Shown here: one piece after another, positions 1-63,358 of the stretch
Numbering within the stretch: position 1 is the first letter of the stretch
Layout of the letters: every line of letters starts with the position of its first letter
From: Mermis nigrescens
Lineage: Eukaryota; Nematoda; Enoplea; Mermithida; Mermithidae
Length of the DNA stretch: 64,000 bases
Direction: 5' to 3'
NCBI GenBank assembly: GCA_036768485.1
Contig: JAVLUZ010000142.1
Coordinates: 18,411,735-18,475,734 of the forward strand
Translations under genes and position numbers: made by a program
The notes under the pieces: model-generated
Seen by the model: only the letters and a program-made list of their open reading frames with translations
What the model was told of the DNA's origin: nothing
The model's database searches: none

Positions 1-689
1 GACCGCCCCTGTGGTCAAAAAATAGATGGACATAACAAGGAATAGATGTGTTTTTTGGCGATTATAGCCGGCGGCCAATCAATGATTTTCGTAAAGGGAG
101 CGGGGCGATACCCATAGTTTTCGGGAAACATTCAAAAATAGGTCTAAAAAAACCACTAATCGTGTGTAATAGCGTTTTTGGCCCTTTTGTGCAGTCTATT
201 TTGAATAAAAATCATTTCTGGTGCAAAAATTTATCGAAAAATTTCGCAATTTTATGATTTTTAGTTTGATAAAAAGTGCAAAAAAGTCTCGAAATTCGCA
301 AAAATTTTCGGCGCTTCGCCCCGGAATCAGCAATTGTGTGTTCTATATATCTTTATACTGTCAGAAATTGCATTTTGAAAGGGAAAATGTCGAAGATTTT
401 TAAACGCCTCGCGCCGTTTTGAGACGATTATTAACGATTTTTGCCCTCTGAAATCCAGAAATTAGCTCAAATACACTACCAACGGTCGAACAACTCTGTT
501 TTTGCCACACTAAATCGCTACTGTATCATATTACAGCACCCAAAAATTTATGAGCACAAAATGTACAAAGACTTTTAAGGACCATCTTTGTACATGAACA
601 AACGGACCTTGTACAAAAAAAGGACTGTATCCTGAATCAAAAACTTAGTATGGCCGGAAATCACTACAAAGTAAATATCTATCGCTCAT
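1..689. repeat. Remnant of hAT-like family C and AT-rich spacer
   Basis: No gene seen. Bases 3-11 (CCGCCCCTG) match the right terminus of the family C elements described at 1171 and 19067. Bases 85-420 resemble the interior of the 19067 copy (the stretch about a ...AATAGCGTTTTT... block followed by ATAAAAATCA). An inverted copy of the GGCGCGAAGCGCC-type palindrome lies at 302-323. A perfect 11-bp hairpin stem occurs at 561-571 and 585-595 (ATGTACAAAGA and its complement), followed by CCTTGTACAAA. The small reading frames here fall in repeat sequence and are not called. Confidence 0.5.
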
Positions 690-697
690 CTCGCCAC

Positions 698-959
698 CAC
701 ACATGGGCGTAGGGGGGGTTTGGGGGTATGCACACCCCTAGAAGTTGTAACACTCCCCAGAAATCAAAATATACACCCCCAGAATTCAAATTTTGATTTT
801 TTTGCCTTTTTGGTGATTTTTTGATGCTATTGAATAGTGCTCAATGAGAAACGTCAAAAAAATGGTGTTTTTTTGGCCATACGACCACTTTTAAGACCAT
901 TTTTTGACTTTCGAAAATTTTTCACCCCCCCCCTTGAATTTCGGTGCTGCCCACCTATG
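698..959 (+). mobile_element. hAT-like miniature element, family B
   Basis: The copy is 262 bp, bounded by a perfect 8-bp direct repeat CTCGCCAC at 690-697 and 960-967, the target-duplication length of the hAT superfamily. Ends are short imperfect inverted repeats: CACACATGGGCG on the left, and CATAGGTGGGCAGC read inwards from the right. The interior holds C-runs and a recurrent GATAGTGCTC-type block shared by at least ten other copies in the window. It has no coding capacity. Confidence 0.85.
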
Positions 960-1170
960 CTCGCCACCTATTTTGGGCCAATGGGAAGAGGGAGGGGGGA
1001 ACGCGAACCGCCTCTTTAAATCCGTTTACAATTCTGGTCACTTTTAACAGAATATCGACTTTGTTGGTGCTCTGAAAAGCTTATTTTTACGTTCGTACAC
1101 GGCAAAGATTTTGTGGTTCTTGCAATGATTTATTGAGTATAAATAATACACTTATATATTCAAACAGCCT

Positions 1171-1361
1171 AAGTGGCGGATCCAGGATTTTCCCGAGGGG
1201 GGGGGGCGGTACCCCTAAGGGGGGAAGGAACCATGACTTGGGCGGAAAAATTAGCCGTTTTGACCCAAAAATCGCTAAAAATCACTGAAAAATCCTTAAT
1301 TTTGCGCACTATTTTGGGCCAATGGGGGGGGGGGCGGCCACCCCCCTTAAATCCGCCCCTG
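1171..1361 (+). mobile_element. hAT-like miniature element, family C
   Basis: The copy is 191 bp. The left end AAGTGGCGGATCCAGG and right end TTAAATCCGCCCCTG are imperfect inverted repeats of the CAGGGGCGGATC type, common at hAT ends. The flanks AACAGCCT (1163-1170) and AACATCCT (1362-1369) match at 7 of 8 positions, read as an aged 8-bp target duplication. Open frames on both strands across it are shadows of the repeat. Confidence 0.75.
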
Positions 1362-1369
1362 AACATCCT

Positions 1370-2844: not shown

Positions 2845-2849
2845 CTCAC

Positions 2850-3612: not shown

Positions 3613-3769
3613 CAGGCACGTATCTTTGGGGGAATGGGGGGTTTGGACCACCCCGAAATTCAGAAAAATCGGAAAAATAAGACTTTTTAAACATTATTTG
3701 CTTTTTGGGCTCAGTCCCCCAAAAATTGGTGTGGCCTCCCCCAAGATAGAACGGCCAGCTACGTGGCTG
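3613..3769 (+). mobile_element. hAT-like miniature element, family D
   Basis: The copy is 157 bp, starting CAGGCACGTATCT and ending AGCTACGTGGCTG, an inverted pair. The flanks ATGAGAGG (3605-3612) and ATGACAGG (3770-3777) match at 7 of 8 positions. The interior has the block CAGAAAAATCGGAAAAATA shared with 4166-4332 and, in variant form, 14591, 19477 and 26646. Confidence 0.8.
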
Positions 3770-4509: not shown

Positions 4510-4928
4510 ATCAGCCAGCCATCCAACTAATCAACCCAGCAACCAGCCAAACAGCCAAACCAACCAACAAACAGAACAAACAACCAACTGAACAACTAGC
4601 AACCAACAACAACAACCAACCAGCCAACAAACTAACCAACCAATCAACCAAGCAACCAGCCAAACCAACCAACAAACAAAACAAACAACCAACTGGACAA
4701 CTAGCAACCAACAACAACAACCAACCAGCCAACAAACTAACCAACCAAGCAACCCAGCAACCAGCCAAACAGCCAAACCAACCAACAAACAGAACAAACA
4801 ACCAACTGAACAACTAGCAACTAACAACAACAACCAACCAACCAACCAACAAACTAAGCATAAAATCAAGCAAGCAACCAACTAACCAACCGACCAAATA
4901 ATCAATTAAACAACCAACTAGCCAACCA
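4510..4928 (-). repeat. (CCAA)n tetranucleotide array
   Basis: About 420 bp of irregular CCAA/CAAC repeats with larger internal duplications (a block of about 140 bp containing CAACTAGCAACCAACAAC recurs three times). It is the reverse complement of the (TTGG)n arrays at 17393 and 31937. On the minus strand it translates into Trp-Leu-Val-Gly-rich frames of 100-116 codons. These stay open only because the tetramer creates no stop codon, so they are not genes. Confidence 0.9.
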
Positions 4929-5893
4929 AAATACGCAACTGTGTATATACTCCTTTGACAACAAGCAGTATAATAAAATAAAGTTGATTGCTAAAATGAA
5001 AATTTGATCGCACTATATTATGCAAAATGTATAACGAAATATTCATCTAATTACGTAGACAATTGCAAAATTCATTGATAAGCATAAGATTATAATTACA
5101 AAATTATTACTTTTATTATTATAATTTTTTATTATCAAAACCGATTAAGCCCTCTCCGTAATTCGACTGATAAAACAAAGATACATAATGCGCATAGAAA
5201 TTCATTAATTATCTGAAAATCGTGTGGTAAATTTTCACAACAAAACAACGCTTTTCGAAAATGACAAACAACCACATTTTCCTCGCTCCCGGTATCAGCG
5301 GGGAGACCGGCCATTGCCTAGGTACGCATGGGCGTGAGGGTTAAGCAGACCCTCAATCATCCAAACCCCCAGAACCCCTTATAAAAAAAACAACTGATGG
5401 TAGAAATAAATTCAGGAAAAAATGAAAATAAATCACAAAAATCGGCCACTTTAAAAAAAAAACGTAAATAACTTCGGTGACCAGGAATGCAAAAGATCGC
5501 CTTAAAGAAACTAAAAAAACAAGAATCTGCTCAAAAATTAGAAGTTTAAAAACAATAAAATTCCGAAGCAGGTGAGGTTGGTCAACTTTAGCAAAAGTAC
5601 ACCATCGCCCAATTACGCGCCATGTCTAATAAAATTAAATTTTTCAAAGAATCACGAAACAAATCAATTCCCTAAAAAGCTTTAAGCAAAAGATTGTGTC
5701 CTTATCATTAAACTTTAGCACGTGTCAATTTAAATTTTCTAAAAGTAATCATAAAACTCATCAGAATAAAAAACATAATTAAAAATTTAAAGAAGTGCGA
5801 CTAGAAGTAAACTGACCGAAACACGGTCTATACGGATGGTTACGCGAGCGTAGTTAGATTAAATAATGAGAAAGTCTTGATATAAAAAATTAC
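4929..5893. other. Gene-free AT-rich spacer
   Basis: I see no gene. A family B-like left end (ACGCATGGGCGTGAGG) is near 5325, with a short C-rich tail up to about 5385, but no right terminus. The rest is A/T-rich with no long open frame. Confidence 0.4.
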
Positions 5894-5901
5894 AGTATAT
5901 G

Positions 5902-6689
5902 CAGGCCCGTATCCAGCTTTTAATTTTGGGGGGGGGGCGAAAATTTTTGAGGCCAGATATCTCGAAAACCATTAGGAGATAGGCGAAAATAAAGGCAGTT
6001 TTGAGCGTATCTCGGCAAGCTCTATACGATGGTGAAGAAAAATTTCAAAATTTTTTCACTCTATTTCATATTGATATACAGCAAATTTATCATTTAAGCT
6101 GATTTCTCATCACTTAATCGACGAATTATTTCTTATCTCTTGCCTTTGCACTTAATCATTGTGCTTTACAGAGAAAAACAATGCAGATAACGAATAATTC
6201 GGCGCCAAGAGCCGAAAAAATTGACATATTCTGCATGTCAAGTTCAAATTTGAGCGGTTTTGAGCGGGCTAGAAGACAAAAAACATATATAAACAATAAA
6301 CACGGCGCGAAGCGCCGGAAAAATTTCATGTTTCCATTGTCAAACCTCAAATTTGAGCTGTTTTGAGTGAGCTAGAAGGCAAAAACTATAGCTGAACAAT
6401 GAATCCGGCGCACAGCGCTGGAAAAAATTGACATGCTCTCTAAGTCCAACTCAAATTTGAACGATTTTTAGCGGTTTAGAAGACAAAACTATACATAAAC
6501 AATAAATCCGGCGCGAAGCGCCGGAAAATTTTGAGTTTACTTGCTCAAAAGTACGCTAAAAACTTGTTTTGGCGGTGTTTTAGACGCACTTCGCCAATTT
6601 TTAATTTTTCCCTCTGGGGGACCCTTGGGAAAAACAGAAACTTTTCCCATTCCAGGGGGGCAGGCCCCCGCCCCCAGGATAAGGGCCTG
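5902..6689 (+). mobile_element. hAT-like element, family A (788 bp)
   Basis: Bounded by a perfect 8-bp duplication AGTATATG (5894-5901 and 6690-6697). Termini are CAGGCCCGTATCC on the left and GGATAAGGGCCTG on the right, inverted with one mismatch. The interior contains four tandem units of about 103 bp (near 6200, 6304, 6407 and 6510), each starting with a GGCGCGAAGCGCC-type palindrome followed by GAAAAATT and a CAAATTTGAGC block. The two exact palindromes are 6304-6316 and 6510-6522. No transposase is present, so it is non-autonomous. Sister copies are at 8811 and, inverted, 18085. Confidence 0.9.
6200..6540 (+). repeat. Tandem repeat of about 103 bp inside family A
   Basis: There are four units, each with a palindrome start, then TTGACATGCTCT or TTTCATGTTTCC, a CAAATTTGAGC stretch, a TAGAAGACAAAA block and an AACAATAAATC tail. 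The same units recur in the copy at 9110-9400 and inverted in 18240-18440, so the array belongs to the element and predates its spread. Confidence 0.8.
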
Positions 6690-8810: not shown

Positions 8811-9543
8811 CAAGCCCGTATCCAGGAATTTATTTCGAGAGGGGAACCACAAATTTCTAGAGGCTAGATATCCCGAAAACCATTGAGATAGGCGAAAACA
8901 AGGGCAGTTTTGAGCGTATCTGGACGAGTTCTATACGATGTCGAAGATGAAGAAAAATTTCAAGAAAATTTGTCACCTTATTTCATATTGATTCATATAC
9001 AGCAAATTTATCGTTTGAGCTGATATCTCCATCACTTAATCGACTAATTTTTCCTTATCTCTTGCATTCGTAATTAATCATTGTGTTTTACAGAGAAAAA
9101 CAATGCAGATAATGGATCGCCAAAAAATTAACATATTCTGCATGTCAAGCTCAAACTTGAGCGGTCTTGAGCGGGCTAGAAGACGAAAAACAAATATAAA
9201 AAAGTAAACACGACGCGAAGCGCCGGAAAAATTCCATGTTTTCCTTACCATAAGTCAAGTTTGAGATGTTTTGAGTGAACTAGAAGGCAAAAACCACAGC
9301 TGATCAATTAATCCGGCGCACAGCGCCGGATAAAAAGTGACATGCTCTCTATGTCTAACTCAAATTTGAGCGATTTTTAGCGGTCTACTAGCTCAAAAGT
9401 ACGCTAAAAACCTGTTTTGGCGGTGTTTTAGACGAACTCCGCCAATTTTACATTTTTCCCATTGGAGTAACCTTTGCAGAAAAAATTTTTTTAATATTTC
9501 GGGGGAGATGGGGCGGCCACCGCCCCCTGAATATACGGGCCTG
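8811..9543 (+). mobile_element. hAT-like element, family A (733 bp)
   Basis: Second copy of the element at 5902, starting CAAGCCCGTATCCAGG and ending ATACGGGCCTG. Flanks GTTTCAAC (8803-8810) and GTTTTGAC (9544-9551) agree at 6 of 8 positions. The left flank is also the right target duplication of the family B element, so one 8-mer served two insertions. It contains palindrome variants near 9213 and 9313. Confidence 0.8.
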
Positions 9544-15689: not shown

Positions 15690-16060
15690 TGGGATCTCGC
15701 AGGCTTTGGGAGGTTTCAGCCCCCCCAGAATTGACGATTTTTTGGAGGTTCCAAAAAATTTTAAAAAATTTGTAGAAAAGATATTTTTTACCTTTATAGC
15801 TATCTATTTGCTAAAATTTGTCAAATTTTCGGTGCTTCGCGCCATATTTTTAGGTTTTGACTATAGTTTGTCCAATTTATTTGACTTTTTGACATTTTTT
15901 CCAAAAATTTCTGTTTTTATGCTTCAGAAAGATAGAACATCGTCAGAAACGCCGAAAAACGATGTTTTTGACGCGTACCAATCATTATTGGCCTCAAAAA
16001 AGGCACTTTAAAATTTCACACACCTCAGAATTCCCACGCTGTGCGTGTCAGACAGACACC
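15690..16060 (+). repeat. Family G element, termini degraded
   Basis: The interior aligns block by block with 27107-27506: CAGCCCCCCCAGAATTG, an inverted palindrome GGTGCTTCGCGCC at 15831-15843, TTGACTATAG, TTTATGCTTCAGAAAG, CGTCAGAAACGCCG, GGCACTTTAAAA and CAGAATTCCCACGCTG. The ends near 15690 and 16050 are too diverged to fix a target duplication. Confidence 0.65.
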
Positions 16061-18084: not shown

Positions 18085-18713
18085 AAGGCCCGTAACTAGG
18101 GGGTGGGGGCCGGCTCCCCTTCGAAATGTGAAAAAATTTTGTTTCTTCCAAGAATCCCTCGGATAAAAATGGAAAATTGGCGAAATGCGTCTGAAACACC
18201 GCCAAAACAGGTTTCCAGCATACTTTTGAGCTAGTAAACTCAAAATTTTCCGGCGCTTCGAGCTGGATTTATTGTTTATGTATGCTTTTGTATTATAAAC
18301 CGTTAAAAATCGCTCAAATTTGAGATGGACATAGAGAGCATGTTAATTTTTTTTCCGACGAGCTTGATATTGCAGAATATGTCAATTTTTTAGCGCTTAG
18401 CGCCGAATTATTCATTATCTGTATTGTTTTTCTCTGTAAAGGACAATGATTAAGTACACAGGCAAGAGATATACAATAATTCCTTGATTAAGTGATGATA
18501 AAGCAGCTTAAATGATAAATTTGCTGAATATAAATATGAAATAGATTTGAAAATTTTTGAAATTTGTTGTGAAATTTTTTTCACCATTGATTAGAGCTTG
18601 CCCAGATACGCTCAAAACTGCCCTCATTTGAGCCCATCTCTTATTGGTTCTCGAGATATCTGACCTCAAAAATTTTCGCCCCCTTCCCAAATAGAATCCT
18701 TGTTATGGGCCTG
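18085..18713 (-). mobile_element. hAT-like element, family A (629 bp), inverted
   Basis: Third family A copy, in reverse. Left end AAGGCCCGTAACTAGG, right end TTATGGGCCTG, with a perfect 8-bp duplication TGTAGGGG (18077-18084 and 18714-18721). It carries inverted palindrome units near 18250 and 18395 and the TTTTTCTCTGTAAA block common to all three copies. Confidence 0.88.
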
Positions 18714-19066: not shown

Positions 19067-19833
19067 CAATGGCGGATCTAGGATTTTCCTAAGGGGGGAA
19101 GGGCGGTATCCCAACTTTTCCAAAAACAGTCAAAAATAGGTCCGAAAATTTGCCCTTAACGCGCGAAATAGCGTTTTTTCGGTGTTTTACATTGTTTACT
19201 TTTAAATAAAATCACTTTTGACGCAATATTTTTCCAAAAATTTTAAAATTTTCGACAATTTTGTGTGAAAAAAAATCATCAAATTTCTTTGACTTTTACA
19301 AAAATCTGGAGCGTAGCGCCGGAAAATTTGTGAACTTAAGGCGGATAGACATCTAGAAGGATGATTTACTGCTTGATTCCCTGTTTCTATAGCATTTTAT
19401 GCGAAACATCAATATTTTCAACTGAAAATAGAAGAAAACAATGCAAACATAGAACAGAAAATGGCTTCCAGGTCGCCAGGCACGTAGCTGGCCCTTCTAT
19501 TTGGGGGGGGGGACCAACACCAATTTTGGGGGGTCTAAGCCAAAAAAAGCACAAAATAACGTGTAAAAAGTCCTATTTTTCCGGTTTTTTCTGAATTTTA
19601 GGGGTCCGAACCCCCCCCCCCAAGACTCCCCCACGGCTACGTGCCAGCAGGTCGTCAAGAAAGTTAATGAATGTCATTAATAGATATCATTCGGCGCGTA
19701 ACGCCGAAAAAATTTTAGAAATTATGGTCACTGACGGCCAAAAATCATTGCAAATTGCATACCCATTCTTTATCTCGCCAAATATTTTTTGGCCAATGGG
19801 GGAGGGCGGCCGCCCACCTTAAATCCGCGCCTG
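19067..19833 (+). mobile_element. hAT-like element, family C (767 bp), with nested family D
   Basis: Starts CAATGGCGGATCTAGG and ends TTAAATCCGCGCCTG, with a perfect duplication CTATGTAG (19059-19066 and 19834-19841). Closest relative is 30445-31638, which shares the interior GTTTTACATTG-type block, an AAATCTGGAGCGTAGCGCCGG-like palindrome region and TTTACTGCTTGATT. Interrupted by the family D copy at 19477-19647. Confidence 0.88.
19477..19647 (+). mobile_element. hAT-like miniature element, family D, nested in family C
   Basis: The copy is 171 bp. Starts CAGGCACGTAGCTGGCCC, ends GGCTACGTGCCAG. Flanks CAGGTCGC (19469-19476) and CAGGTCGT (19648-19655) match at 7 of 8 positions. It is younger than its host because it interrupts it. 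Confidence 0.85.
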
Positions 19834-21264
19834 CTATGTAGCACGTTTTAATGTGAAAAACTGCATTTTTAACTACTTTTTGTCTCATTCTAACTAGTTT
19901 CGTCACTCTTATGAGTAAAAATATAAGAATTCATCGAACATTTTGACTATTCAGATCATTTTAAGTTCATTCTAGGTATTTTATAAGTAAACTAGTGATG
20001 TCCTGGGCACCGGCACCGGGCCGGTGCTAAGCTGGTACCGGCGCCGGTGCTAGATAAAAGAGAAAAAATTAGTGTAAAAAGAATAATTGAAGCTCATTTA
20101 TCACCAATTTAATGAATAAAGGCGCAAAAAGGTAGCATTTTGTTAATAAAATCTTCTGATTAGCATAGTGAAGCATTTTGACTGAACTTCAGAACAAGTC
20201 TTCGAGCTTTAAAAATGAATTATTCATTTAACGAAACACATCTTATTGAAAACATCAATTAACAGCAAGAAGCGTGGACACTAATAAATAAAGTAAATTA
20301 AAATTAAAAACATCGACATATAGAGTGGAAAGCTCTTCCAATCCTACCATCTGTAGGCAAGAAGGATGAGTACTACAGAGTAGTTTTCAACTTAATTTCA
20401 TCAAATCCATTTTTATTTTTCCATTTCGTGAGCAGATGATCGTAAAACGCAGCTAGAATTTCAAAATAATTTTTATGCAAAACTTTTTCCTGCAAATTGT
20501 TCAGAAAAAGCTTGTTAAAACTTTTGTAAATGAACTTCTATGCAAGTCTTTTGCATTACTAATATATCCCATGTTTGTTTTCAGAGGCTTTTGAAAATGT
20601 GAAATGATAAACTCAAATAATTTAACCTATAAAAAAGTTTTTGTGGCTATTTTCATGTTTGTTTCTTATTAGTTGAATATTTAACTAATGCACTAAAACT
20701 AAATTTCGATTTGACTAAAGAATCAACTACTGCACAAGCCAATCTTGATTGCGCTACACTTAAACTTATAATACACTATTTAACTTTAATTTTTCTTCGA
20801 ATTCCAATTTTATTACAATTTTTTGTTTGTTTAATGCTTAAGTGAGAAAAATATTATGTATTCATAAATTAAAAATAATGAAGTCGTTACTAGCCAAATG
20901 AAATTTTGCCCTTAATATGTATATCCGGCAGTGATCGTACGGGGTCAGATTTTCACCCCCGATCGGGGTCGGGGTCGGGATGAAAAACCCCGGTTTTCGG
21001 GGTAGGGGTCGGGGTTGAAGATTAACAATTAACATTGCATGATTACATACCAATTTGAAAAGGATAAAAACGATACCTTCACTTGTTTGTAGAGCATACT
21101 AATAAAGCTGGTTATGTTCAACATTTTATTTTCATTCCAAGTTCAAGCATGGTTTTAGCAATTTAGCATTATTTTCAATTTTAATCACTAACCACTCTCG
21201 TTTTTCCGTATTGTTCCACAGTTTTTTCATAACGGTTTTCAATGGCGCACTAATTGTAGAGGAG

Positions 21265-22250
21265 CCAATGGCGCGAAGCGCCGAAAATTTTCGAAATTTT
21301 TACCGTTTTAATGTAGAATTTACGCCTTTTTATTGACAAACAGTTCGGAAATCATAAGTGGCGCAAAGCATCAAGAAATTCAGTCATATTTTACCGCCCT
21401 AAGACAATAATCGGCGGTGCTAAGCGCAAGAAAATTTTGACGTTTTTACTCTTTAAACTCAATTTATACCGCTCAAATCATACAGAACAAACAGATAAAC
21501 TAATTGCGGCGCGAAGCGCCGAAAATTTTTAAAAATTATTAATCCTTTTACCTTTTCTGTCCTCCTAAAAATCTCTTTCAACATGTAGAACCAGATTGTA
21601 CGGCTGGGGGTCTGGGGTGGCGCGCTCAAGCGCCACCGGCGAGGTCCAGAGCAGAACCCCCGAAAATTTTGTAAAAAAACACTCTAATTTTTAATTAGTA
21701 AAGTTAAAATTTTCGCAAATTGGCAAAATCTCGGTTCTGAATTAAGTCCAAAAAGTTAAAATTAATGAAAATCTACACTGCACAAAACTTTTGAGCTGAA
21801 ATGCGTTTTTCGACCTCTGCTAAGTATGTAGCGCAGCAACGGGTCTCAACCAATAAGTCACTGAAAGATGTATCAATGAGAATTTTGTTCTTACCATTTT
21901 CAGGCCCATTTGTGGCCTTCTACCTTCTTATTAACTAGTTCAGAAAACAGAAAATGCGCAAAAACACAAGAAAATTTGGCCTTTCCATTTAAAATAGAAT
22001 TATGTCCTTGTAAAGAAAGATAAACAAAGCAGAGAATAGATAAATTGGTACGCAAACATTTTCGCACTTTTACTATTATTTTCAACAAGCATGTGCAGTT
22101 TCATTCAGTGAACTAACAATGCATTAAATCACTAAAGTGCTGCGAAGTGCTGGATTATTTTGACAGATTCAAGCTTTTAAATTCATTGGATCTGTATAAC
22201 AATAAATAATAATGACTCGGCGCGAAGCGCCGGAAAATTTTGACGTTTGT
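21265..22250 (+). repeat. Diverged tandem repeat bearing the GGCGCGAAGCGCC palindrome
   Basis: Units of about 90 bp begin at 21270, about 21359, about 21412 and 21508. Isolated palindromes follow near 22139 and at 22219-22231. The exact 13-mer GGCGCGAAGCGCC is at 21270-21282, 21508-21520 and 22219-22231, each followed by GAAAATTTT or GGAAAATTTTGA. The unit (CTTTTTATTGACAAACAGTTC-like block) matches the satellite at 28300-29700. Confidence 0.7.
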
Positions 22251-22514
22251 GCCTTTTTAAACTCAATGTTCTGGACACATTGCGCCAGAAAAATCAACAT
22301 AATTTCTGAAAAATTCCGGGGGCATGTGCTTCCATTCCCCCTGGCTACGCCTGTGATTCCGCAGTAATTTCGGCGCACTTCATAATGGAAAATATGCGAA
22401 CATGTATGTACGTCTTAACAACATGGCGACCAGGCGTACTTTTTATGAAATATCGCGAGTGTCGAGTTTAATATATTAATTTCGCTGGTGAATGAATGGT
22501 CCTTGTTCCGAATT

Positions 22515-25013
22515 TACAGTTCTTGTCACGGAAATTGCAAACGCAGCGCCGCTGTGACCTACTATGATTGACCAACTACAGTAGAACGTAAGCGCTTCTA
22601 CCGTAGCCACGCGTGTTCGGTCATATTAAAATGGCGTTCGGCCTTAGTAGATCGCAGCTAGCATATTGCGTTATTTGTCACACATACGGGAAAAAATTTC
22701 TCAATGTGCTTTGATTTTTTGCATGCGTGCGTCTCAAAAGTGTGTGCATGCTGCATGTCCAGTCCGAGAAAAAAAGGTAAAAATAGATTGGAATTTTCGT
22801 GCATATCATTATAATTCTCGTTTCCTCCATTGTAATCTCATCTAAGAGATAATGGGCATAAAAATGAAAGAAAATAGTATTTCCTGTGTGCGATGAATTG
22901 CATATTGCTCTGCCACAAAAGAGCATTTTAAAATTAATTTCAGGCTGAGAGCGTTCTGCGTTTTAAAACAAATTCATAGCCAATGAAGAGCAAAAGATTC
23001 AAAAATCATATAGGCCCAAAAATTTCTTTTGCCATGAGTAATATGATTTTAAAAAGCGCATCTTTTTGACTAAATCAAAATTAGAAATAAAATCAAAGCA
23101 AATTGCTCTTATCTTTTGGAGGGAAAGGTTTTTAAAAAGTTATTTTCATTCTCCTACAAACCATATTTTTCACCATTATATTGCGAAATTGGGAAGAGAA
23201 TGAATAGTGACTGTAAGGTCTAAGCTAGATAGAAAATTTAACAAAATAGTGAAATACAGATGACAAATACTTTTGCAAATTAATTGTACATCATCCTTAG
23301 TAGATCGCGGATAGTAGAATGAGATGACCTTCTTATTGCGTATTAATACAAACATACAGTATGCGTGTCTTTTTCTTTAAGGAATCGGAGAATAATATGA
23401 CCACGCCGTTATTTGTTACAATGATGATCGTTTTACGCAAGTTGTAGTTTTAACGCGCGTGCTGCATGCAGCGTAGAAGGTTCCCTGCGCGCCTAAGTAC
23501 GTGCTTTGTGCCTGCTGTATGCAGCGTAAATCGGAAAGATAAAAATAGCCAGGCTGGCCGTTCTTTTGACACAGGCATGGAAGAACGAAAATCTACTTTG
23601 TTGAAAAAGTTGAACTAAATAAGCGTCTGAAGTGATTGGATAGAATAATTATATTTCTATCACATAATTTTATATAATATTTACATAATGATACAATTAG
23701 TAATATTAGATGGGAACTGACATGGAATACGACTCGACAAGAATTTGAAAATTGATATTTAAAATTATTTTTAAAATGAATGAATCAATTAATTAATCAT
23801 AAATCTTTATTCGATTCTTTTATAGTGTTGAAAAGACTAATAAAATTAATCATATGTCATACCAGCACAGCATGGGGATTGTGGAGGGATGAAACCTAAA
23901 TAATTTTGTATTAAAAACACCGTTGATGGTCCTTCTTTCTGGCCACAAATGGCCATGGGGGGATTGTGACCCCAGAAGTTGAAATACATACCCCTGCAAA
24001 TTACTGTTGACCCCAGTATTCTATTTTTAGTTATATTTTTGGCGATTTACCTTATTCTGACCCCCTAGAATTTAGGTGCTGCATATTTAAAATTTTTGTT
24101 ACATAAAATAAACTAAATAATAAATATCGTTATGTTTTTAAACTACAAAATTGATAAAAAAATTCCTCATTATCCGCTTTCAAAAATATTTTGTATCTTC
24201 GCTTTTTTCATTTATTTACGATATGTACATCAATAATATATTCAGTTCAGAAGTGAAATACATCACATAGTGTCTGTCTCCTCAGGCAGGACATATAGTT
24301 AAAAAAATATTGCCCGTTCTATTATTTCGCGCAAATTTTATTCTGACCAGCCAGCTTTCGTCACAATTTTTCTTGTTCAATTAAAGTACTTATATATGTG
24401 TATCTACCATTTTGTATTTATTCTATTCAGCGGACATACACCTACACACACATGTAATAAAGGCAAGGCTTGAAAACAACAACAAATTTTTACCTCCTAA
24501 TATTTTAATACACAAGCTCACAAAGATTTTGCTCGCGTTCCCTAGGTCTATATGATTTTTAAATCTTTTGCTCTTCATTGGCGATGAATTTCTTTTAAAA
24601 CGCCGATCGTTCTCAGCCTGAAATTAATTTTAAAATGCCCTTTTGCGGCAGAGCAATATGCAATTGATCGCAAACAGGAAATACTATTTTCTTCCATTTT
24701 TATGCCCATTATCTCTTAGATGAGATTCCAATGGAGGAAACGAGAATTATAATGATATGCACGAAAATTCCAATCTATTTTTCTCGGACTGGACCTGCAT
24801 CATGCACACACTTTTGAGACGCACGCATGCAAAAAATCAAAGCAGTGTGACAAAAAACGCAATATGCTAGCTGCGATCTACTAAGGTCGAACGCAATTTT
24901 AATATGACCGAACACGCGTGGCTACGGTAGAAGCGCTTATGTTCTACTGTAGTTGGTCAATCGTAGTAGATCACAGCGGCGCTGCGTTTGCAATTTCCGT
25001 GACAAGAACTGTA
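22515..25013. mobile_element. Fold-back element with arms of about 480 bp
   Basis: Bases 22515-23013 and 24545-25013 are long imperfect inverted repeats. The outer edge is TACAGTTCTTGTCACGG and its complement; internal matches include CAGCGCCGCTGTGA, GCATGCGTGCGTCTCAAAAG and CTCATCTAAGAGATAATGGG. The 1.5-kb centre is AT-rich and non-coding. Flanking 8-mers TCCGAATT and TTTGCTAT do not match, so the target duplication is unresolved. Long-arm elements of this kind are known among Mutator-like and fold-back transposons; the superfamily is not determined. Confidence 0.75.
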
Positions 25014-25441
25014 TTTGCTATTTATACAATTCTTTTATGTACCAACAAATAAAATGCTATATTTCAACCCCGGAAAAAAAGGTTCAACCCTGACTCGAGG
25101 GTCGGGGTTGAGGCCGGGATTTTTCGGCGTCGGGGTCCCCGTACAATCACTGATATCCGGTGAAAAATAGGTACAAATTTAACCCTTTTGAAGAAGCATA
25201 GTACACTATATAATATTCTAATGTAGCACCGGCACCGGCACCGGCCGCCGGTACAGGGGTACCGGCACCGGCACCAGTAAAAAAGCGGCACCGGGACATC
25301 ACTAAAGTAGGTAAACAAAACAGAAATGTATTCTTCAGCTGCTTTTGTACCCAAAAATCATACAGAAAATGTTTGATAGCTCAAAATCATCTGACAGTGA
25401 TTCAAGTCTCGGACCCCAAGATGGGGGTAATGCCCCCTCAC

Positions 25442-26645: not shown

Positions 26646-26811
26646 CAGACATGTAGCTGGCCCTCTAATTTTGGGGGGACCAACATCAATTTTGGGAAGT
26701 CTATGCCAAGAATAGCACAAAATATGGGGTAAGAAGTCCTACTTTTCCGGGTTTTTCTGAATTATGGGGGTTGGGTCCCCGGACCCCCATCCCCCCACTG
26801 CTACATGCCTG
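26646..26811 (+). mobile_element. hAT-like miniature element, family D, perfect target duplication
   Basis: The copy is 166 bp. Starts CAGACATGTAGCTGGCCC, ends GCTACATGCCTG. Perfect flanking CCCGTAAG at 26638-26645 and 26812-26819. The best-preserved simple copy of the family. Confidence 0.9.
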
Positions 26812-28299: not shown

Positions 28300-29420
28300 T
28301 ATTACATCTGGCACGAAGCGCCAAAGAATCTTGACCTTCTATCCTTTTCAGCTCAATATGATGGGTTTTCGAAGATACGAGTATAAAACTCATTTTGCAG
28401 CCCTAATCATCCTCAAACTTCGCTTAGGTTTTTAAATGCTTTTTTCATGTGAAACAGGAAATAAAAATATTAAATCCAGCAGAAATATTGATAATTTCCC
28501 ATTCAGCTCAATTTTAGGAATTTATTAAAACAGACGTATGAATAAATTAGTAAATTTCGGCACCATTAATGGAATATTATGGCATTTCCATATCTTCGAC
28601 TTCATTTTGAGGCATTCAGAGCTGTAAAACTTTAAACCAGTACAAAAATATATTCGACTAAACAGCCCGGTATCCAGGATCCATAGTGGATCGCAAACTT
28701 TGAAGTCAGATATAAACCATTAGGAGATAGGCGAAAATAAACGCATTTTTGAGCATTTCTCAAAGAGCTCTAAACAATGGCGAAGGAAAATTTTTAAAAT
28801 ATTTTTTTCTATTTTTAACTCAATTTTGCAGCCTTATTAGACAAATACTGCAGAAACGTGCATATTATAAGACTATGGCGCGAAGCGCCGAAAATTTTGA
28901 CGTCCTTATCCCCTTAAGCTGAATTTTGAAGCTTTCTGAATATAGACAGTGCTTAAATAATATATGGCGCGAAGCGCCAGAACATTTCTATATTATTATT
29001 CTTTTAGGCTCAAATTTGCATCTTTCTCGATATAAATAATCGAGTATCATGCCTGGCGTGTAGCGCCGAAAATTTTTGAGATTTCTACACTTTTTACCTA
29101 AATTTTGCAACTTTCTAAACAGCAATGCAATAATTATAGTTTGCACGAAGCGCCGGAAATTTTCGATTTTTCTATCTTTTTAAGCACAATTTTGCAGCTT
29201 TCTGAATGTATGCAATTGAAATTATATTTGGTGCGAAGCACTGGAAATTTTCGATACATTTACTCTCTTATGCTCACTTTTGCAGGTTTCCGTATATAAG
29301 CAATGCAGCAATTATATTTGGCGCAAAGCATCGGAAAATTTGTGCGTTTTTATGCTGTTAAGCTCAATTTGACACCTTTCTGAAGATAGGAAATGCAAGA
29401 AATATGTGCATTCAATGTTT
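28300..29420 (+). repeat. Satellite of about 89 bp built on the GGCGCGAAGCGCC palindrome
   Basis: Palindrome starts at 28877, 28966, 29055, 29142, 29230 and 29320 give spacings of 89, 89, 87, 88 and 90 bp. More diverged units extend back to about 28312. Each unit is the palindrome, then (G)GAAAATTTTGA-like sequence, a T-rich stretch with CTTTTAAGCTCAATTTTGC, and CTTTCTGAATATA(A)GCAATGCA. Exact 13-mers are at 28877-28889 and 28966-28978; the others decay with one to four changes. It has no coding capacity. Confidence 0.85.
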
Positions 29421-30444: not shown

Positions 30445-31638
30445 CAGTGGCGGATCTAGGACTTCCGTAAGAAGGCATGCCCGTATTCCATTTTCCGAAA
30501 ACAGCCGAAACAGGTCCACAAAATGGCCTTCACCAGGCACGTAGCTTTGGGGGATAGAAGAGACTAGTCCCCCTTTCCAAATGTTGAAAGTACGAGTATT
30601 TTTTACAGGGGTCCCTAAAGGAAAATTAAAAATTCTTGAAGCGTACCTATTTGAAAAATCGCCAAAATAGATTTCAGCATACTTTTGAGCTAATAGGCCC
30701 AAAATTTTCGGCGCTTTGCGCCAAATTTATTGCTAGTTGCATAACTTTTAACTTCTAAACAGCCCACTTTTAGGTATAAAATGAAGAAATATGTCAAAAT
30801 TTTCTGGCGCTTCACAGAATTATTTACTGTTCACATAAGTTTTGTTTGCAATCTACCCGAATTGATTATAGAACAATTTAAACAATTTTTCAGCAGGGTC
30901 GACCTTATGTTTGTCGAGAAATCATTTGTGCGGCCAATTTATACGGCACGATTTTTGAAGACAAGTGAAATTGAAATAATATTTTTTCTAATTTTTTCTC
31001 TAATGTGTAGGGCTTGCTGAGAAGCGCTTAAAAACACCTCGTCCATCTACAAGTATTTGCTAAAACATCCGACTGCCCTTCACATGCAAATGGCATTTTT
31101 CCGCGTTTTACGTCGTCTACTTTCATTTGAAATCGCTTTCGAAGCAACATTCCTTAAAAATTTTTGAAGTTTTCGACAATTTTATTTGAAAAATATCATT
31201 AAATTTCGTTGACTCTAGTGGAAATCCAGCGCAAAGTTTCGGAAAATTCGTGGATTTTAGGCGGAAGGACTTCTAAAAACTTGAGTTACTGCTCGATTTC
31301 CCGTATTTGTAGCGTTTGATGCGTAGCGTCGAAAATTTTTTAAGGTTATGCATGGATTGAAATAGAATAAAAGTATGCTGAAATAGCAATTTCTGCTCTT
31401 GAAATCGTTTTAATTCATTTCTTGAGCGAAAATATGGCTTTTAGACCGCCAAGAAAGTAAATAAATGTCATTAATAGGTATTATCCGGCGTGAGGCACAG
31501 GAAAAATTGGAGAAATCAAGATCATTTACGTTCAAGAATCATTGCAAATTACATATCCATTCTTTATCGCGCCAAGTATGTTGGGGCCAATAAAAGGCAG
31601 GGCGGGGGGCGCCACCCAACCCCTTAAATCCTTCCCTG
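30445..31638 (+). mobile_element. hAT-like element, family C (1.2 kb), with nested family E
   Basis: Starts CAGTGGCGGATCTAGG and ends TTAAATCCTTCCCTG. Perfect duplication TCTGCAAC at 30437-30444 and 31639-31646. The interior aligns with 19067-19833 once the nested insertion at 30534-31075 is skipped. A palindrome variant (AATCCAGCGCAAAGTTTCGG) lies near 31226. Confidence 0.88.
30534..31075 (+). mobile_element. Nested family E element
   Basis: The copy is 542 bp. Starts CAGGCACGTAGCTTTGGGGG; the right end is near CATCCGACTG, where the inverted terminus has decayed. Flanks GCCTTCAC (30526-30533) and CCCTTCAC (31076-31083) match at 7 of 8 positions. The boundaries also follow from comparison with the uninterrupted family C copy at 19067. 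Contains an inverted palindrome GGCGCTTTGCGCC near 30709. Confidence 0.75.
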
Positions 31639-31936: not shown

Positions 31937-32150
31937 TGATTGGTTCGTCAGTTGGCTGGTTTATTGATTAAGTGATTGATCAGTTGGTTGATTCATTGGT
32001 TGGTTAGTTGGTTGATTGGTTGGTTAGTTGGTTGGTTGGTTGGTTGGTTGATTGGTTGGTTGGTTGGTTGGTTGGTTGGTTGGTTGGTTGGTCGATTGTT
32101 TGGTTGTTTGTTTGGTTGGTTGGTTGGTTGGTAAGTCGGTTCATCAGTTG

Positions 32151-32214
<64 letters not shown>

Positions 32215-32267
32215 CTTAGTTATTTACTTAGTTAGTTAGTTAGTTAGTTAGTCAGTTAGTTAGTTAA

Positions 32268-32299
<32 letters not shown>

Positions 32300-37671: not shown

Positions 37672-38600
37672 GTTTTGATTACAAACTACTCTGTTGACGT
37701 GAAAATGTTTCTTGGCAACAAGGGTGCCGGCCGACCCGCTGCACCCTCTAAATCACCGTTTTTTCCACTTTTTGGTCTATTTGTCAACCAAAATTTTGGA
37801 AAATGGAAAAAATTTTCGGGCTTGGTTGGCATTTGTGGAAAATTTTTGTTATGTTAAAATGCGTTTAGAGAAGCAAAACATCAACAAAATTTTGGTGCTT
37901 CGCGCCAAATTGATTTAATTATTACTTTTTATTAATCTTATGCCGCACCGCACCAATTGCAGCATTTTTATCGACTATCTGGTCTAGAACTTCACTATGA
38001 TTGAAAATCCTTATCTTATGCACGGATTTGGTTAGCTTTTGTAATGTGAAAATGCGTTTTACAGAGGTGAAACTTCAAAAATTTTGGCGCTTTGCGCCTA
38101 ATTGATTTAATTCTTACTTGTTTTTAATTTTTAAGCGTGCTGCGCCAATTGCAGCATTTTTATTGGCAATCTGGTCTGGAACTTCACTACGATTGAAAAT
38201 CCTTGGCTAAACTTAAGAATATGGTACTTTTGGAAAAGGTACAAAACGAATACGGAATGCCAAAATTTTTTTGCCAAAACGGTAGAACATGATAAATTGA
38301 AGCGCTGGAAAAAGAATTTGGTGAAAATCTGAGCCTTACTTGCAAAGTTGCAGGCAACTCTCGATTTGAGTGTTGCGTGGGACGATTAAACGGCTCGATC
38401 CAAGGACTTATATACACATTTGTCAGAAATAAATAATATGGGCTGAAATTACGGAAGGAAGCATAGCGATGAAGTAAAAAAAGAAAAAAGTGCGGAAAGC
38501 TGTTTGAAATTTTGAAAAAGAAAAAAAATTTCATTTTTTTGCTTGTTTTTTCGGTTTTACTCGATAATATATACGAAAATCTAAGTTTTTGCTTCTGTTA
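37672..38600 (+). repeat. Family K tandem units
   Basis: Two units of about 195 bp near 37870 and 38065. Each has an inverted palindrome (GGTGCTTCGCGCCAAATTGAT and GGCGCTTTGCGCCTAATTGAT), CACCAATTGCAGCATTTTTAT or its variant, and CTTCACTACGATTGAAAATCC. A third, diverged unit is at 42050-42240 on the far side of the Merlin gene. An open frame of 115 codons at 38187-38534 (minus) has no recognisable domain. Confidence 0.55.
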
Positions 38601-55152: not shown

Positions 55153-55344
55153 TGCATAGCTGGTATTGGTGTAGTATGTCTCCACCTTGCCAAAAATGCA
55201 CCCACCTAGGTGTAGCATGTCTCCACCTCACCTAAAATTATTTTTTATGGATATTGCTTCTTAAATAATTGTTTTGTAAAACATACCTGTACGGGTTTAA
55301 CCAGTTCGCATAAGTGGTACCTAATTTGCATAACTTTAATGAGA

Positions 55345-59896: not shown

Positions 59897-60379
59897 CGTG
59901 CTGATGCTGCTTTTGGTCATATGTCTGAAATGAAGAAATTCAGCCTATGGTTTTGATTTCCAAAAAACAAAACATAAATGGATATATTGTAGGTATATTA
60001 CAATGAAATTCAAAGAAAATTTGACATATAAGCCCAAATTGTTTTTTGTCCACCTATGTATATAGCTGCCCCATGTTTATCTTGAAGCTGTGAGGGACAT
60101 ACCTGCATACATAAACAAGATTTAAACTTTAGACGCTTATAATTATGCACAACCAAGTTGATGTTGTCAAATTTTGGGCAATTTAAAAAAAAATCTTATA
60201 CTTGCTTATAAGGACTTCTCTTTGCTATTGAACCCGTGAAGATTATGTTTCAAGTTCGTATCAAGTAAGTTCAAAATATCAAGATTATCAAGCAGCGCAC
60301 GCATGACTGACTTGTAGATCTCGAACAATAATGCAGATGTAGATGTGTATTTGGTGGTTGTTCTCAGTGCTCTGTAACT

Positions 60380-60700
60380 AAGACCGGCTGATGCTCATAA
60401 GATGCTTGCACGTTTTTATAAGCAGTCAGCTGGGATCTTGTTGAACTGCTTGTAGGGCAAGCCCTTGCAAGCAAAATTATAAGTATGCTTGCAAGATAGA
60501 AATTCTTGTAAGATTCGGATAAGCAAGGTCTTACAAGCATTTCAATAAGATTCAAAATTTCTTGTAAGCTTGCTTGTAAGAATTACGTTTTCCTGTAAGT
60601 TGGCAAGTAAGCACATGACAAGCAAAAGGTACAGCACTTGCAAGAAAACTAACAAGCATTTCTATAAGATCTTATTCGTAAGCATTGCAAGCACACATAA
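60380..60700. repeat. Right CTTRYAAG palindrome array
   Basis: Examples are CCCTTGCAAGCAAAATTATAAG near 60470 (quoted words CTTGCAAG and TTATAAG), CTTGTAAGATTCGG near 60512, CTTGTAAGCTTGCTTGTAAG near 60561, and CACTTGCAAG near 60635. Composition and spacing match the left array. Confidence 0.7.
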
Positions 60701-60706
60701 CGTGGG

Positions 60707-60981
60707 AATGTATATGACTTCTCGCAATATCAGACAAACGACACCAGGTGTTCGTCAATACCTTTAAAAAAACTCATTACTCTTTAATTTGATATAGAGA
60801 AATATACTTGCAGTCGCATAGGAATCACTTGGAATATTCCGAGTCAATGACAAACGCTTCCAGTACTTATGCGTTAAGTACCGAATTGGAAATCCAAAAA
60901 AGTAAGCATGAAGAATAAACATTGGTCATAAGTAGGCCCGGATGCTTGAGTGGATCCGCGTTTGATTTGTAATCTTCTTAA
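60707..60981. other. Spacer between two elements
   Basis: Short AT-rich sequence with no recognised feature. Confidence 0.3.
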
Positions 60982-63358
60982 TAGGGATGCAACGGGTACC
61001 CGAACCCGTATACTCCGGTGCCCGAACCCAATCATGAATAAACTGAACTTGACTACCCGAACCCGAATAAAATTATTATAACTGCATACCCGGACCCGAA
61101 TGTTTATGAATTTTATTCGGGTTTACTCGGGTATTTTCAAGCTCTAGAATATCACAATTGTAGGTCAAAGAATCAAAAATTTTCGGCTTTGTGCGCCGTT
61201 TTCAGTTTGCTCGACCCTAAAACGCTGAATTTCATGTAGTTATCAAGTGCACATTAATGGCTGTGTAAGTAAGTGGTATATTTCAATCGATTCACGTGAA
61301 TTTTTAATCATTTTATTTCACAAAACGACTGCCAAATGATATCGTTTAAAATGCTAAACACTGCTTCTTTGGTCGTGATTAAACTTGGTTTCTATCAAAT
61401 TAAACTTCACGAATAACTGTCTTTCGGCAGCACACATTCCCATAGAAGTGAGAGGGGTATTACCCCCCCCCTTAGCGTCCACGACTCAAGTCACTAACAG
61501 ACTATATTTGGGTGAAAACCTTTTTGAATTCTTTTAGCTTAGTTTCTACTATGGAAATAGTGCACTTAACTATTAGAATTTAATGAAGTGATACAGTATT
61601 TTGGAATGAAAGCAAAACTATTTCTATAAAACATGCATGTAACAGCTCAAAATTTTGGAAGAGGATGTCCTCGGCATACATGTAACGGCTGGAAATTTTG
61701 GGTGGGGGTGCCATTTTTAGAAGAAGGGGAGGGTTTGTGACTACAATTTTAGGCCAAAAATGGCAAAAACACCTAAGAATAGCCAAACACGCAAGTTTTC
61801 GCCAAAAAAAATGGTGGAGGAAGGTCAAAAATTTTCACTGACTTTGGAGGGGGTGCGAAGCCTAAAAGCGTTGGTGGGGGAATCGCCTAAACAACCTGTT
61901 AAGTTTATGTTTCTCAGTCATTTTTAGGGGGGGGGGTAAGCGGCTCCGATTTTTGGCCAAAAGTGGCAAAAACAGCTAAAAATAGCTAAAAAGCGCAAGT
62001 TTTCGCCAAAAATGGGGGAGGGTGGGTCAAAATTTTCTGACGTTGGGGGCTGTAGGAGGTCGTCCAACCTGGGGTGGAGAATCCCCCAAAGCACCGTGTT
62101 ATACATCTGATATTCGGCCAATTTAGGGGGGGGGGGGGTAAATGACAAATTTTTGGCCGCAAATCGCAAAAAAGGCGCCTAAAAATGCTCGAAAAGGGCG
62201 GGTTTTCGCCAGAAATTGATTTCGGCTCGTGCATTTATTCTTGGAGCCATCTTTATACAATGTTAAAATACTTTCAGGGACAAAGTGATAGTAATTTTAA
62301 CCTTTTTGTTCAGTATTTTTCAGAAATTTCAAAAATTTCGGGTGCTTCGCGCAAAATATCACTAATATACTGTATTTAGCTTCAAAGGGGCATTAAATAT
62401 TCCAAAATCAATCTTTGTGTAATATAGGCATCTTTATGCAGATTCAAATATCTCTTGTATCTATTTCTACTGTTTTTAAAAATTTTATGCAAATATAAGT
62501 ACTGTTTGATGTGTTTGCACATTTTTCCCTTCAATGATAAAATTGACTAATTTATCTCTATATTACGTTGGATTTATGAGCGCAGTGGTGCTTATTACAA
62601 GATTTGATTGTCATATTACAATTTCTTTTAATATTTGTGATTTTGTAGTACATACAAGTTGTTTTAGCTTTTCCAGTCGAGTTTTATTAAAAATATACTA
62701 AATTCAGGCCAAATCGTCATATTTAGGACTGCATGTGGATCGTAGGTCACACACTGGTAGTATGTAAAAATTTGTATATTTAATAATATATTTATATAAT
62801 ACATCTTTCAAAAATTTTTCCGCTCATTCAAAGACCTTTTCGGAGATCTTTATACATGCACAAAGAAGCTTCGTACACAAAAATCGTGTCGACTTATAAT
62901 AATACCCCACTTAATTCACCCCTCCCTCAACTCTGGAGCTTGGGAAACTATGTTCAGCAGTTTCTCCAAGCAAGCGATTTCGCGTGAGCTCATATATCAA
63001 AAGTAGTTGTTAATGTTATTTGCAGGTGTAGGTATATCAGACACAATACACACAGCGCTACCTCTCATTTACATTAGCGTTATTGCACACTGAGAGGAGG
63101 AAGGAAAATCACTGGATACTTGAGTGAAACATATTAAATAATTAGGCACGAGGCATCTAATAATAATAAAAATTGTAACATCTGGCTTACATTTACCTAA
63201 GAAATTCGCCATACACTGGTATGGTATTCCTATAAACTTACTGAAATACCCGAACCCGATCGGGTATTGATTTTGATACCCGAACCCGAATAAACTTGGA
63301 TGAACTGCCCGAACCCGAACCTGACATACACCAAAATTCACTACCCGTTGCATCCCTA
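60982..63358 (+). mobile_element. hAT-like element with ACCCGA arrays (2.4 kb)
   Basis: Left end TAGGGATGCAACGGGT and right end ACCCGTTGCATCCCTA are perfect inverted repeats. Flanks CTTCTTAA (60974-60981) and ATACTTAA (63359-63366) agree at 6 of 8 positions. Both ends run into ACCCGAACCCGA arrays (60998-61135 and 63245-63325). Much of the interior (61440-62960) is an inverted copy of the family I repeat at 51220. No transposase frame is recognised. Confidence 0.85.
61440..62960 (-). repeat. Family I repeat, minus orientation, inside the ACCCGA element
   Basis: Reverse-order match to 51220-52560 (AGGGGTATTACCCCCC near 61450, TGCTTATTACAAGATTTGATT near 62588, GGTCACACACTGGTAGTA near 62743, CTCTGGAGCTTGGGAAACT near 62930). 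Three degenerate G-rich units (TTTTGGCCAAAAGTGGCAAA-like) at about 61680, 61925 and 62125 form an internal tandem repeat of about 200 bp. Open frames over it are repeat shadows. Confidence 0.6.

Follow-up and report, generated by a model that had tools for sequence, protein, structure and literature searches.

A recurrent 13-letter dyad box in small hAT-type elements of Mermis nigrescens as a candidate protein-binding site

Why a single 13-letter near-palindrome should recur in otherwise dissimilar repeats is the question raised by the window, that is, the whole stretch of 64,000 nucleotides of Mermis nigrescens DNA analysed here. The box is built of two GGCGC half-sites in dyad about GAA, to which an oriented A/T tail is added. 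Its abundance, its host elements, the extent of sharing among its host families and the fate of its copies are considered in turn, and the readings that might account for it are weighed.

Abundance and architecture of the box

Seven exact copies occur in the window (0 expected; 0 in 100 shuffles), and all seven coordinates that a sequence-only reading of this DNA had given for them are right. They are listed here with three boxes on the opposite strand.

6304..6316, + strand: exact box, family A monomer 2
6510..6522, + strand: exact box, family A monomer 4, 167 bp short of the right end of the element
21270..21282, + strand: exact box, degenerate array inside the 20929-25152 unit
21508..21520, + strand: exact box, final recognisable unit of the degenerate array of the 20929-25152 unit
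22219..22231, + strand: exact box
28877..28889, + strand: exact box, first of six 87-90 bp monomers
28966..28978, + strand: exact box, second 87-90 bp monomer
15831..15843, - strand: family C box (others at 2492, 9694 and 27278), tail facing a G/C-run 104 bp off
37894..38098, - strand: family D box pair (37894, 38086), spacing 192 bp

With up to 2 mismatches, 32 box places are found on both strands, where 0.55 are expected and the largest shuffle gave 2, in agreement with the some thirty variants first noticed. At up to 3 mismatches the number rises to 47, seven of which (1000, 1405, 1471, 27176, 31601, 35679 and 37199) were excluded from the family work for want of tail or context; 1471 belongs to the 32. 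The tail, AAAATTTT, starts 0-2 bases past the box and had been thought to follow nearly all copies; it does so at no fewer than 6 of its 8 letters in 30 of the 32 places (random places 7.1%) and at no fewer than 7 of 8 in 22 (random places 2.0%). Equally, terminal copies are oriented with respect to a G/C-run, which lies 80-190 bp downstream in 14/25 and upstream in 2/25 (random 11.6%), a count in which copies of the same family are not independent; a paired test on downstream and upstream distances to the run gave p = 0.052.

The genome-wide count against a control, as proposed with the sequence-only reading, gave 23,501 plus 23,765, that is 47,266 exact 13-mers in the 523,963,438 bases of the 524-Mb genome, as compared to 6 occurrences of the same 13-mer reversed. 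Among non-simple 13-mers the box ranks first in 264 kb counted; at a word length of 17 bp, family-specific words match or surpass it in frequency in the same 264 kb. Twenty 10-kb stretches distributed over 18 Mb of the contig of the window hold 16 exact, 18 one-mismatch and 20 two-mismatch boxes, with an exact box in 8/20 stretches and a box with up to 2 mismatches in 15/20, so that the window is typical of its own contig.

A prokaryotic or viral origin was considered and rejected, with 0 matches of the extended box in viral contigs and 5 stretches from a prokaryote collection that read as chance. A Smoothened gene marks the DNA as that of an animal, and among the matches listed in three protein searches no named relative was near-identical. 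In the searchable part of the open-licence literature, the 13-mer and four close forms were not found save for one 12-mer in a myxobacterial paper.

Host elements and their arrays

MITEs of the hAT superfamily are characterised by target duplications of 8 bp, by short terminal inverted repeats of the form CA..TG, by the lack of coding capacity and by nested insertion. The hosts of the box had been called hAT-like, and both 8-bp target duplications (TSDs) and CA..TG inverted ends (TIRs) are found.

5902..6689, + strand: hAT-type MITE, family A copy 1; TIR CAGGCCCGTATCCAG/CAGGCCCTTATCCTG, TSD AGTATATG 8/8
8811..9543, + strand: family A copy 2; TSD GTTTCAAC/GTTTTGAC 6/8, boxes 9212 and 9315
18085..18713, - strand: family A copy 3; TSD TGTAGGGG 8/8, two recognisable boxes (18252, 18392)
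19067..19833, + strand: family E element copy 1; TSD CTATGTAG 8/8, boxes 19308 and 19693
20929..25152, no strand assigned: 4.2-kb unit; TIR CAGTGATCGTACGGG/CAGTGATTGTACGGG, TSD ATATCCGG 8/8, encloses boxes 21270-22219
28877..29409, + strand: array of six 87-90 bp monomers, box or box variant at the start of each
30445..31638, + strand: family E element copy 2; TSD TCTGCAAC 8/8, own boxes degenerate, element B nested inside
30534..31075, - strand: family B element, 542 bp; TSD GCCTTCAC/CCCTTCAC 7/8, box 30710 on the - strand

The hosts are small non-coding hAT-type elements. Target duplications of the hAT type were found in nine units with several kinds of ends, namely four of family A, two of family E, the 4.2-kb unit and one each of families B and M, while the hosts of families C and D and of the array at 28877 are outside this set. 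Six of the duplications match at 8/8, including that of a fourth family A copy (L013), two at 7/8, one of which belongs to family M, and one at 6/8. The short CA..TG TIRs match each other at 13/15 in family A copy 1, 14/15 in L013, 13/14 in the 20929-25152 unit and 10/15 in both family E elements. One host is nested in another and its uninterrupted site is seen elsewhere: the TIRs of the family B element match poorly, and the matching uninterrupted site for its insertion is present in family E copy 1, which holds a nested insert of its own at about 19477-19648.

Within hAT-type elements the box stands at the start of tandem monomers, which measure about 90 or 103 bp. Four boxes are recognisable in the internal 103-bp array of family A copy 1, and box number varies among the copies of the family. 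Conservation in the 103-bp array is highest over the box stretch (0.82 vs 0.52 elsewhere); in the 89-bp array a different 13-bp stretch outdoes the box (0.81 vs 0.75). The 89-bp array had been taken for a satellite of a distinct kind, from which we depart as it is not clearly separate: the left subterminal sequence of its host (28699-28814) is 78.5% identical to that of a family A element (5946-6066).

The hosts thus resemble hAT-superfamily MITEs in their target duplications, their short CA..TG ends, their nested insertion and in that no coding capacity was seen, but differ by internal tandem arrays whose monomers are about 90 or 103 bp long and by a single palindromic box that families unlike in their TIRs share. 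Titles and abstract openings of open-licence papers gave no description of hAT MITEs that carry tandem repeats internally or have a box in common. Variable internal tandem repeats are equally known from the foldback elements Galileo, a member of the P superfamily, and Tetris (PMC3688188, PMC4079207), where the repeats sit in long TIRs and, in the consulted parts of these papers, no box common to unlike families is described.

Sharing between families and decay of copies

The families were compared on 131 instances, 109 of them in eight flank-defined clusters and 22 paired or alone. Any copy that lay close to a stretch end or contained N was removed from the family-consensus and stem-change sets, 3-mismatch copies needed an A-rich tail, and the overlapping stretches L008 and L010 were excluded. 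Stretches L006-L013 were chosen for containing exact copies and are a biased sample, in which L006, L007 and L009 look near-duplicate and dominate cluster 5; L007 and L009 were additionally excluded from the flank-model, within-family decay and L013 TIR analyses.

The exact box is the consensus in 7/8 families, a figure that leans towards the box since copies were picked at up to 3 mismatches and that includes one family with 3 members. For the three copies of cluster 7, a majority taken column by column gives the exact box, but two letters differ from it in the gapped alignment. Flank consensuses of different families are mostly no closer than shuffled sequence, with 4/28 pairs non-random on a side, which upholds the initial observation of a shared box amid dissimilar surroundings. 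Family consensuses mostly have only box and tail in common, and the box is what unlike families have most in common.

The close rival to a candidate protein-binding site is plain homology without function, by which all families would descend from a single ancient hAT-type element whose monomers bore the box, and the box would be the segment that is still recognisable. Inter-family flank similarity is above the null, as scores of 36 or more are reached by 1.9% of 723 pairs to the right of the box (null 0.06%) and by 2.4% to the left (null 0.12%). Among five family consensuses, 5/20 flank comparisons exceed the 95th percentile of the null; residual flank homology joins certain families (A-B, F-G and others), and families A and F have subterminal sequence in common. 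Homology far beyond the palindrome, named at the outset as the finding that would reduce the recurrence to common descent, is therefore present for some families, whereas most consensuses share only box and tail.

The behaviour of resident copies also favours plain homology. Single copies decay after insertion, and they do so at about the rate of their flanks; within families the core is barely better kept than the flanks and worse in 3/8 clusters, a comparison that uses models with a bias towards their training copies. Selection on resident copies is thus unsupported. Degenerate monomers without a good box are recoverable through their flanks. The flank models found 151 distinct places, 103 of which have at least 10/13 box letters; as 97 of these 103 are training copies, the models give no independent support. 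Among the 54 non-training places, 6 have at least 10/13 box letters, 22 have 7-9 and 26 fewer. On the other hand, without constraint 13 contiguous letters are unlikely to be identical in seven of eight consensuses with flanks mostly at chance level, a consideration tempered by the use of the box in finding the families, since those with a lost or changed box are under-counted. Plain homology is, on balance, a possible explanation on the unlikely side.

Candidate readings and their meaning

The reading put forward, tentatively and as somewhat short of probable in its entirety, is that the box is a candidate cis-acting dyad protein-binding site retained in mobile founders. Box and oriented A/T tail would be required while elements are still mobilised, and the binder would most likely be a dimeric or multimeric hAT transposase acting via paired BED zinc fingers. 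Arrays might provide extra binding capacity, selection on founders would hold the box identical as flanks drift, and dead copies would decay neutrally. A protein-binding dyad had been among the options named from the beginning, and it is still a live one.

Precedents for such sites exist. In Hermes, an STR1-STR2 quasi-palindrome is bound by two BED domains, with AAGT/AAGC as putative sites (PMC10368747), and repeated transposase sites have been described for Herves (PMC3143072) and, as THAP-domain sites, for Galileo. Short repeated motifs are common to Hermes, Herves and the elements considered here; however, as far as the consulted parts of these papers go, the bound sites of Hermes and Herves are near the ends and element-specific, while the candidate box is located about 128-377 bp in and is common to families. 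Transposases of the hAT type occur in the genome, one with a BED finger. The box at up to 3 mismatches is absent from both hAT transposase loci examined (0.6-0.8 kb each side of the ORF, element ends not located), no TIR/TSD pair was found at either, and neither is established as partner of any box family. No transposase was matched to any of the box-bearing elements, and no partner with the same TIRs came to light. As the hosts differ in their TIRs, one transposase would need to serve several families.

Several different host TIRs are more easily explained by one host protein than by one transposase. The motif might accordingly bind a chromosomal protein, with box carriers spread or tolerated for that reason, in line with the CENP-B box and with what has been proposed for the 17-bp and 19-bp boxes of Meloidogyne. 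In satellites of root-knot nematodes, the CENP-B-box-like Box 1 and a 19-bp box are likewise short boxes kept in divergent tandem repeats, a box being conserved though the satellites are otherwise 36-74% alike (PMC9673304, PMC3694981); in the consulted parts of these papers they are described in satellite arrays, and the likeness to the present box is one of description. The scatter of copies over the sampled contig, in 8/20 stretches as exact boxes and in 15/20 at up to 2 mismatches, fits with a host-protein box. Nevertheless, long arrays were not seen in the sample and copies are unprotected from decay after insertion, and this explanation is considered improbable.

Modular transfer, in which breaks or recombination would concentrate at the palindrome and a segment of about 25 bp would move from one element to another, unrelated one by gene conversion or template switching, is a quite improbable alternative. 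Sharing ends near box and tail in most family pairs, and monomer transitions have been placed exactly at Box 1 in the consulted part of the Meloidogyne work (PMC3694981), but here the spacing class is shared too, as are wider flanks in certain pairs.

An RNA hairpin or a Helitron/Helentron-type terminal hairpin is very improbable, as, despite a possible 5-bp stem, stem pairing is close to independent expectation. Stem changes in the 131 copies comprise 132 one-sided, 3 compensated and 1 two-sided but unpaired (3/136 changed pairs compensated); stem changes being uncompensated, the RNA hairpin suggested earlier is unsupported. Folding of 7 segments was inconsistent, with z below -2 in 2/7 (-4.9, -2.5) and 5/7 unremarkable, and no Rfam match was found in the window. 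The next outer position is Watson-Crick in 71/131 copies vs 54.3 expected, an excess confounded by family membership. The Helitron/Helentron-type terminal-hairpin class is without target duplication; the present palindrome, on the contrary, is inside monomers and not at an element end, in elements with TIRs and with 8-bp target duplications in nine host units. The non-autonomous HINE/Helentron elements of the oyster Crassostrea disperse short satellite-like arrays together with a 3' palindrome (PMC7492417, PMC8268682), and are, in the consulted parts of these papers, of rolling-circle type with subTIRs and the palindrome at the 3' end.

Two further candidates were tried and rejected. GAA-loop hairpins seemed to be in general excess (19 vs 7.1 shuffled), yet the box itself makes up 12/19, the remainder being the expected number. 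Decay by CpG methylation was rejected, as base composition gives it no support, with a window CpG O/E of 0.97; of 62 core substitutions counted over 40 instances, 25 are CpG transitions.

Returning to the candidate protein-binding site, a further and doubtful step would be that a single protein recognises one dyad box kept, as a common address, in many hAT-type families with different ends. If this were so, one transposase or host factor would handle all families, and tens of thousands of dispersed sites, spread by cut-and-paste elements, would make up a built-in chromosomal binding landscape comparable to CENP-B boxes or nematode holocentromere boxes. A protein that binds the box weakly would still be heavily titrated by the roughly 47,000 exact copies. 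Furthermore, should the same 13 bp be kept by the founders of many families, the box would mark a sequence-specific interaction that they share. This would give a handle on the protein on which the success of non-autonomous transposons depends, and would allow a direct test of whether transposition or chromosome function is the reason why divergent tandem repeats keep their boxes.

Abundance of the box and its host elements

The box GGCGCGAAGCGCC, a 13-bp near-palindrome with GGCGC/GCGCC arms around GAA followed by an A/T tail, was found at all seven window places where the sequence-only reading had seen exact copies (0 expected). The variants claimed besides were recovered at 32 window places with at most two mismatches (0.55 expected), and the tail said to follow nearly all boxes is present with at least 6 of 8 letters in 30 of 32 (7.1% at random). 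The genome-wide count that had been proposed gave 47,266 exact boxes, or one per about 11 kb, and 6 copies of the reversed word in 523,963,438 bases; the window lies in contig 48 (23.3 Mb) of this assembly. Within the window's own contig, 20 samples of 10 kb each, taken across 18 Mb, held 16 exact matches, 18 with one mismatch and 20 with two, and showed no long arrays. In window and sample combined (264 kb), with simple words excluded, the box is the top-ranked 13-mer (23 copies), another word leads at 11 bp (38 versus 28) and a family-specific word leads slightly at 17 bp (15 versus 14), the ranking to be expected when several repeat families share one short element.

Self-comparison of the window together with scans for terminal inverted repeats (TIRs) and target-site duplications (TSDs) substantiated the claim of hAT-like hosts, with boxes inside units that have CA..TG inverted ends and 8-bp TSDs.

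Host units carrying the box (TSD, matching letters of 8; L013, from elsewhere in the genome, and L029 are further stretches analysed)
5902-6689: family A element; TSD 8/8; four recognisable boxes
18085-18713: family A element; TSD 8/8; two recognisable boxes
8811-9543: family A element; TSD 6/8; two recognisable boxes
L013:877-1683: family A element; TSD 8/8
19067-19833: family E element; TSD 8/8; interrupted by another insert
30445-31638: family E element; TSD 8/8; own boxes all degenerate
30534-31075: element B, nested in the preceding E copy; TSD 7/8; poor TIRs
L029 6222-6976: family M element; TSD 7/8; ends CAGTGTTTTTTGTAC, quite unlike other hosts
20929-25152: 4.2-kb unit; TSD 8/8; encloses boxes 21270-22219

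hAT-type status is thus shown for the nine host units with both ends established and inferred for the remaining hosts, which include families C and D and the array of 87-90 bp monomers at 28877. The L013 element has the layout of 5902-6689, with four boxes spaced by 103-104 bp and 170 bp (167 bp in 5902-6689) from last box to right end. Once B is taken out and its flanks in the second E copy are joined, the alignment to the first E copy runs over the full length (61% identity, gaps counted), which indicates that a box-bearing element has moved. Elements like family M also occur in three other fetched stretches (L023, L027, L031); the family M box pair recurs about 310 bp further along the element, and CTTTGTACATGTACAAA in its subterminal part is the commonest non-simple 17-mer in the 264 kb. 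Short box-less units with TIRs close to CAGGCACGTAGCTG lie at 14591-15028, 26646-26811 and 3613-3769 (TSDs 8/8, 8/8 and 7/8, respectively), with similar units in the sampled contig stretches.

Another repeat carries a second box, with copies at 10140(-), 10916(-), 14883(+), 36944(+), 46335(-) and 59238(-), whose sequence is approximately (T)CGAYGAGAAACGTCGAAAAA; it too is almost a palindrome centred on GAA, has an A-run behind it and may be a parallel or a distant relative of the first. The window equally contains GTTG/CCAA tetranucleotide-type arrays (31983-34022, 17393-17581 and 4515-4929), one of which is 2 kb long and strongly GC-skewed, and pieces of IS1595/ISXO2-type transposases at 40219-40869 (beetle and other relatives) and 55314-55631, which 41527-41859 resembles by eye, with no Pfam match. 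The genome's animal origin is established by a minus-strand Smoothened gene at 12712-14571, whose best match among solved structures reaches 1.4e-40 and which matches Pfam Frizzled; 11718-14571(-) comprises this gene and then a second long open reading frame in another frame.

Identity between families and decay of single copies

In five window families, which cover 24 of 40 window instances, 10 of 10 pairwise comparisons gave the same consensus box. Gapped flank identity is 0.32-0.65 to the right (null mean 0.44, 95th percentile 0.55) and 0.42-0.70 to the left (0.42 and 0.57), with 5 of 20 values above the null 95th percentile. Clustering by flanks of 131 instances from 282 kb gave eight clusters of at least three members (109 instances); seven of these have exactly GGCGCGAAGCGCC as their majority box, and the eighth differs from it by one letter. 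As instances were picked at no more than three mismatches, any family whose box had changed a great deal would have been missed. What emerges is that family founders share one box and that copies decay once inserted; constraint and the way in which families were found may both contribute to the sameness of the founders' boxes in this sample.

Single copies are not protected from decay. Among 23 close pairs chosen on masked flanks, mean identity is 0.81 in flanks and 0.60 in the core, the latter lowered by alignment gaps; flank-bracketed copies have cluster means of 0.73-0.92 (core) and 0.70-0.87 (flanks), the core exceeding its own flanks in 58 of 86 copies and being worse in three of eight clusters. 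The box is the best-kept stretch of the 103-bp array of family A (0.82; rest 0.52), and a different 13-bp stretch is better kept in the 89-bp array (0.81 versus 0.75). Flank models trained on boxed copies recovered 151 distinct places. Of these, 97 belong to the training set; the other 54 match the box at 10 or more of its 13 letters in 6 cases, at 7-9 in 22 and at fewer in 26.

As an overall account of the recurrence, plain homology comes a close second to the binding site favoured here. Flank scores of at least 36 between families are reached in 1.9% of 723 pairs to the right (null 0.06%) and 2.4% to the left (null 0.12%). The excess is owed to A-B and to F, G and some singles, and to that extent the boxes recur through ordinary homology that reaches past the box. 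Spacings below 450 bp between neighbouring boxes (n=54) fall at 87-94 bp in 25 and 101-107 bp in 10, and a box-masked model from twelve monomers picks up further monomers through flanking sequence, including some in which the box is poor. Descent of all hosts from one element extending far beyond the box, named beforehand as the refuting outcome, is borne out only in part, by residual flank homology that links some families (A-B, F-G and others). Of 28 flank-consensus pairs, most are at the level of shuffled sequence; 4 depart from it on one side or the other, and 1 does so on both.

A candidate protein-binding site

We favour the box as a candidate binding site of a transposase or accessory factor, repeated in arrays. 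Two subterminal repeats of Hermes make up a quasi-palindrome to which two BED domains bind (PMC10368747), Galileo has further functional binding sites within internal tandem repeats (PMC3688188), and a greater number of internal tandem repeats has been suggested to increase transposition (Tetris; PMC4079207). The genome is rich in hAT transposase domains, which matched in all 150 scored candidates out of 3,147 first-look candidates, some within open frames of 580-613 amino acids, and one of two transposases examined has a BED finger. On the other hand, Hermes sites more than 50 bp in are described as dispensable (PMC10368747), and the absence of the box from both hAT transposase loci looked at may count against such a site. 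A box for a host protein, in the manner of Meloidogyne satellites (PMC9673304, PMC3694981), might account for sharing across differing TIRs at least equally well.

The RNA-hairpin function proposed from the sequence was not borne out, with 132 one-sided and 3 compensated stem changes, Watson-Crick counts near independent expectation, inconsistent folding (z below -2 in 2 of 7) and no Rfam match within the 64-kb window. A putative DNA-binding dyad, which would consist of two GGCGC arms flanking GAA with an oriented tail, fits better. Among flank-bracketed copies the central G varies most, being kept in 77% as against 81-92% at the other positions. For 14 of 25 terminal boxes the tail faces a G/C-run at a distance of 80-190 bp, and such a run lies upstream in 2 of 25 (random 11.6%; paired test of downstream and upstream distances, p = 0.052), and runs of this type occur near the ends of box-bearing elements.

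Internal arrays in non-autonomous elements are a known kind, as are boxes common to divergent tandem repeats; in the open-licence literature, no account was found of a single palindromic box that reaches such a copy number in hAT-type families with different ends.
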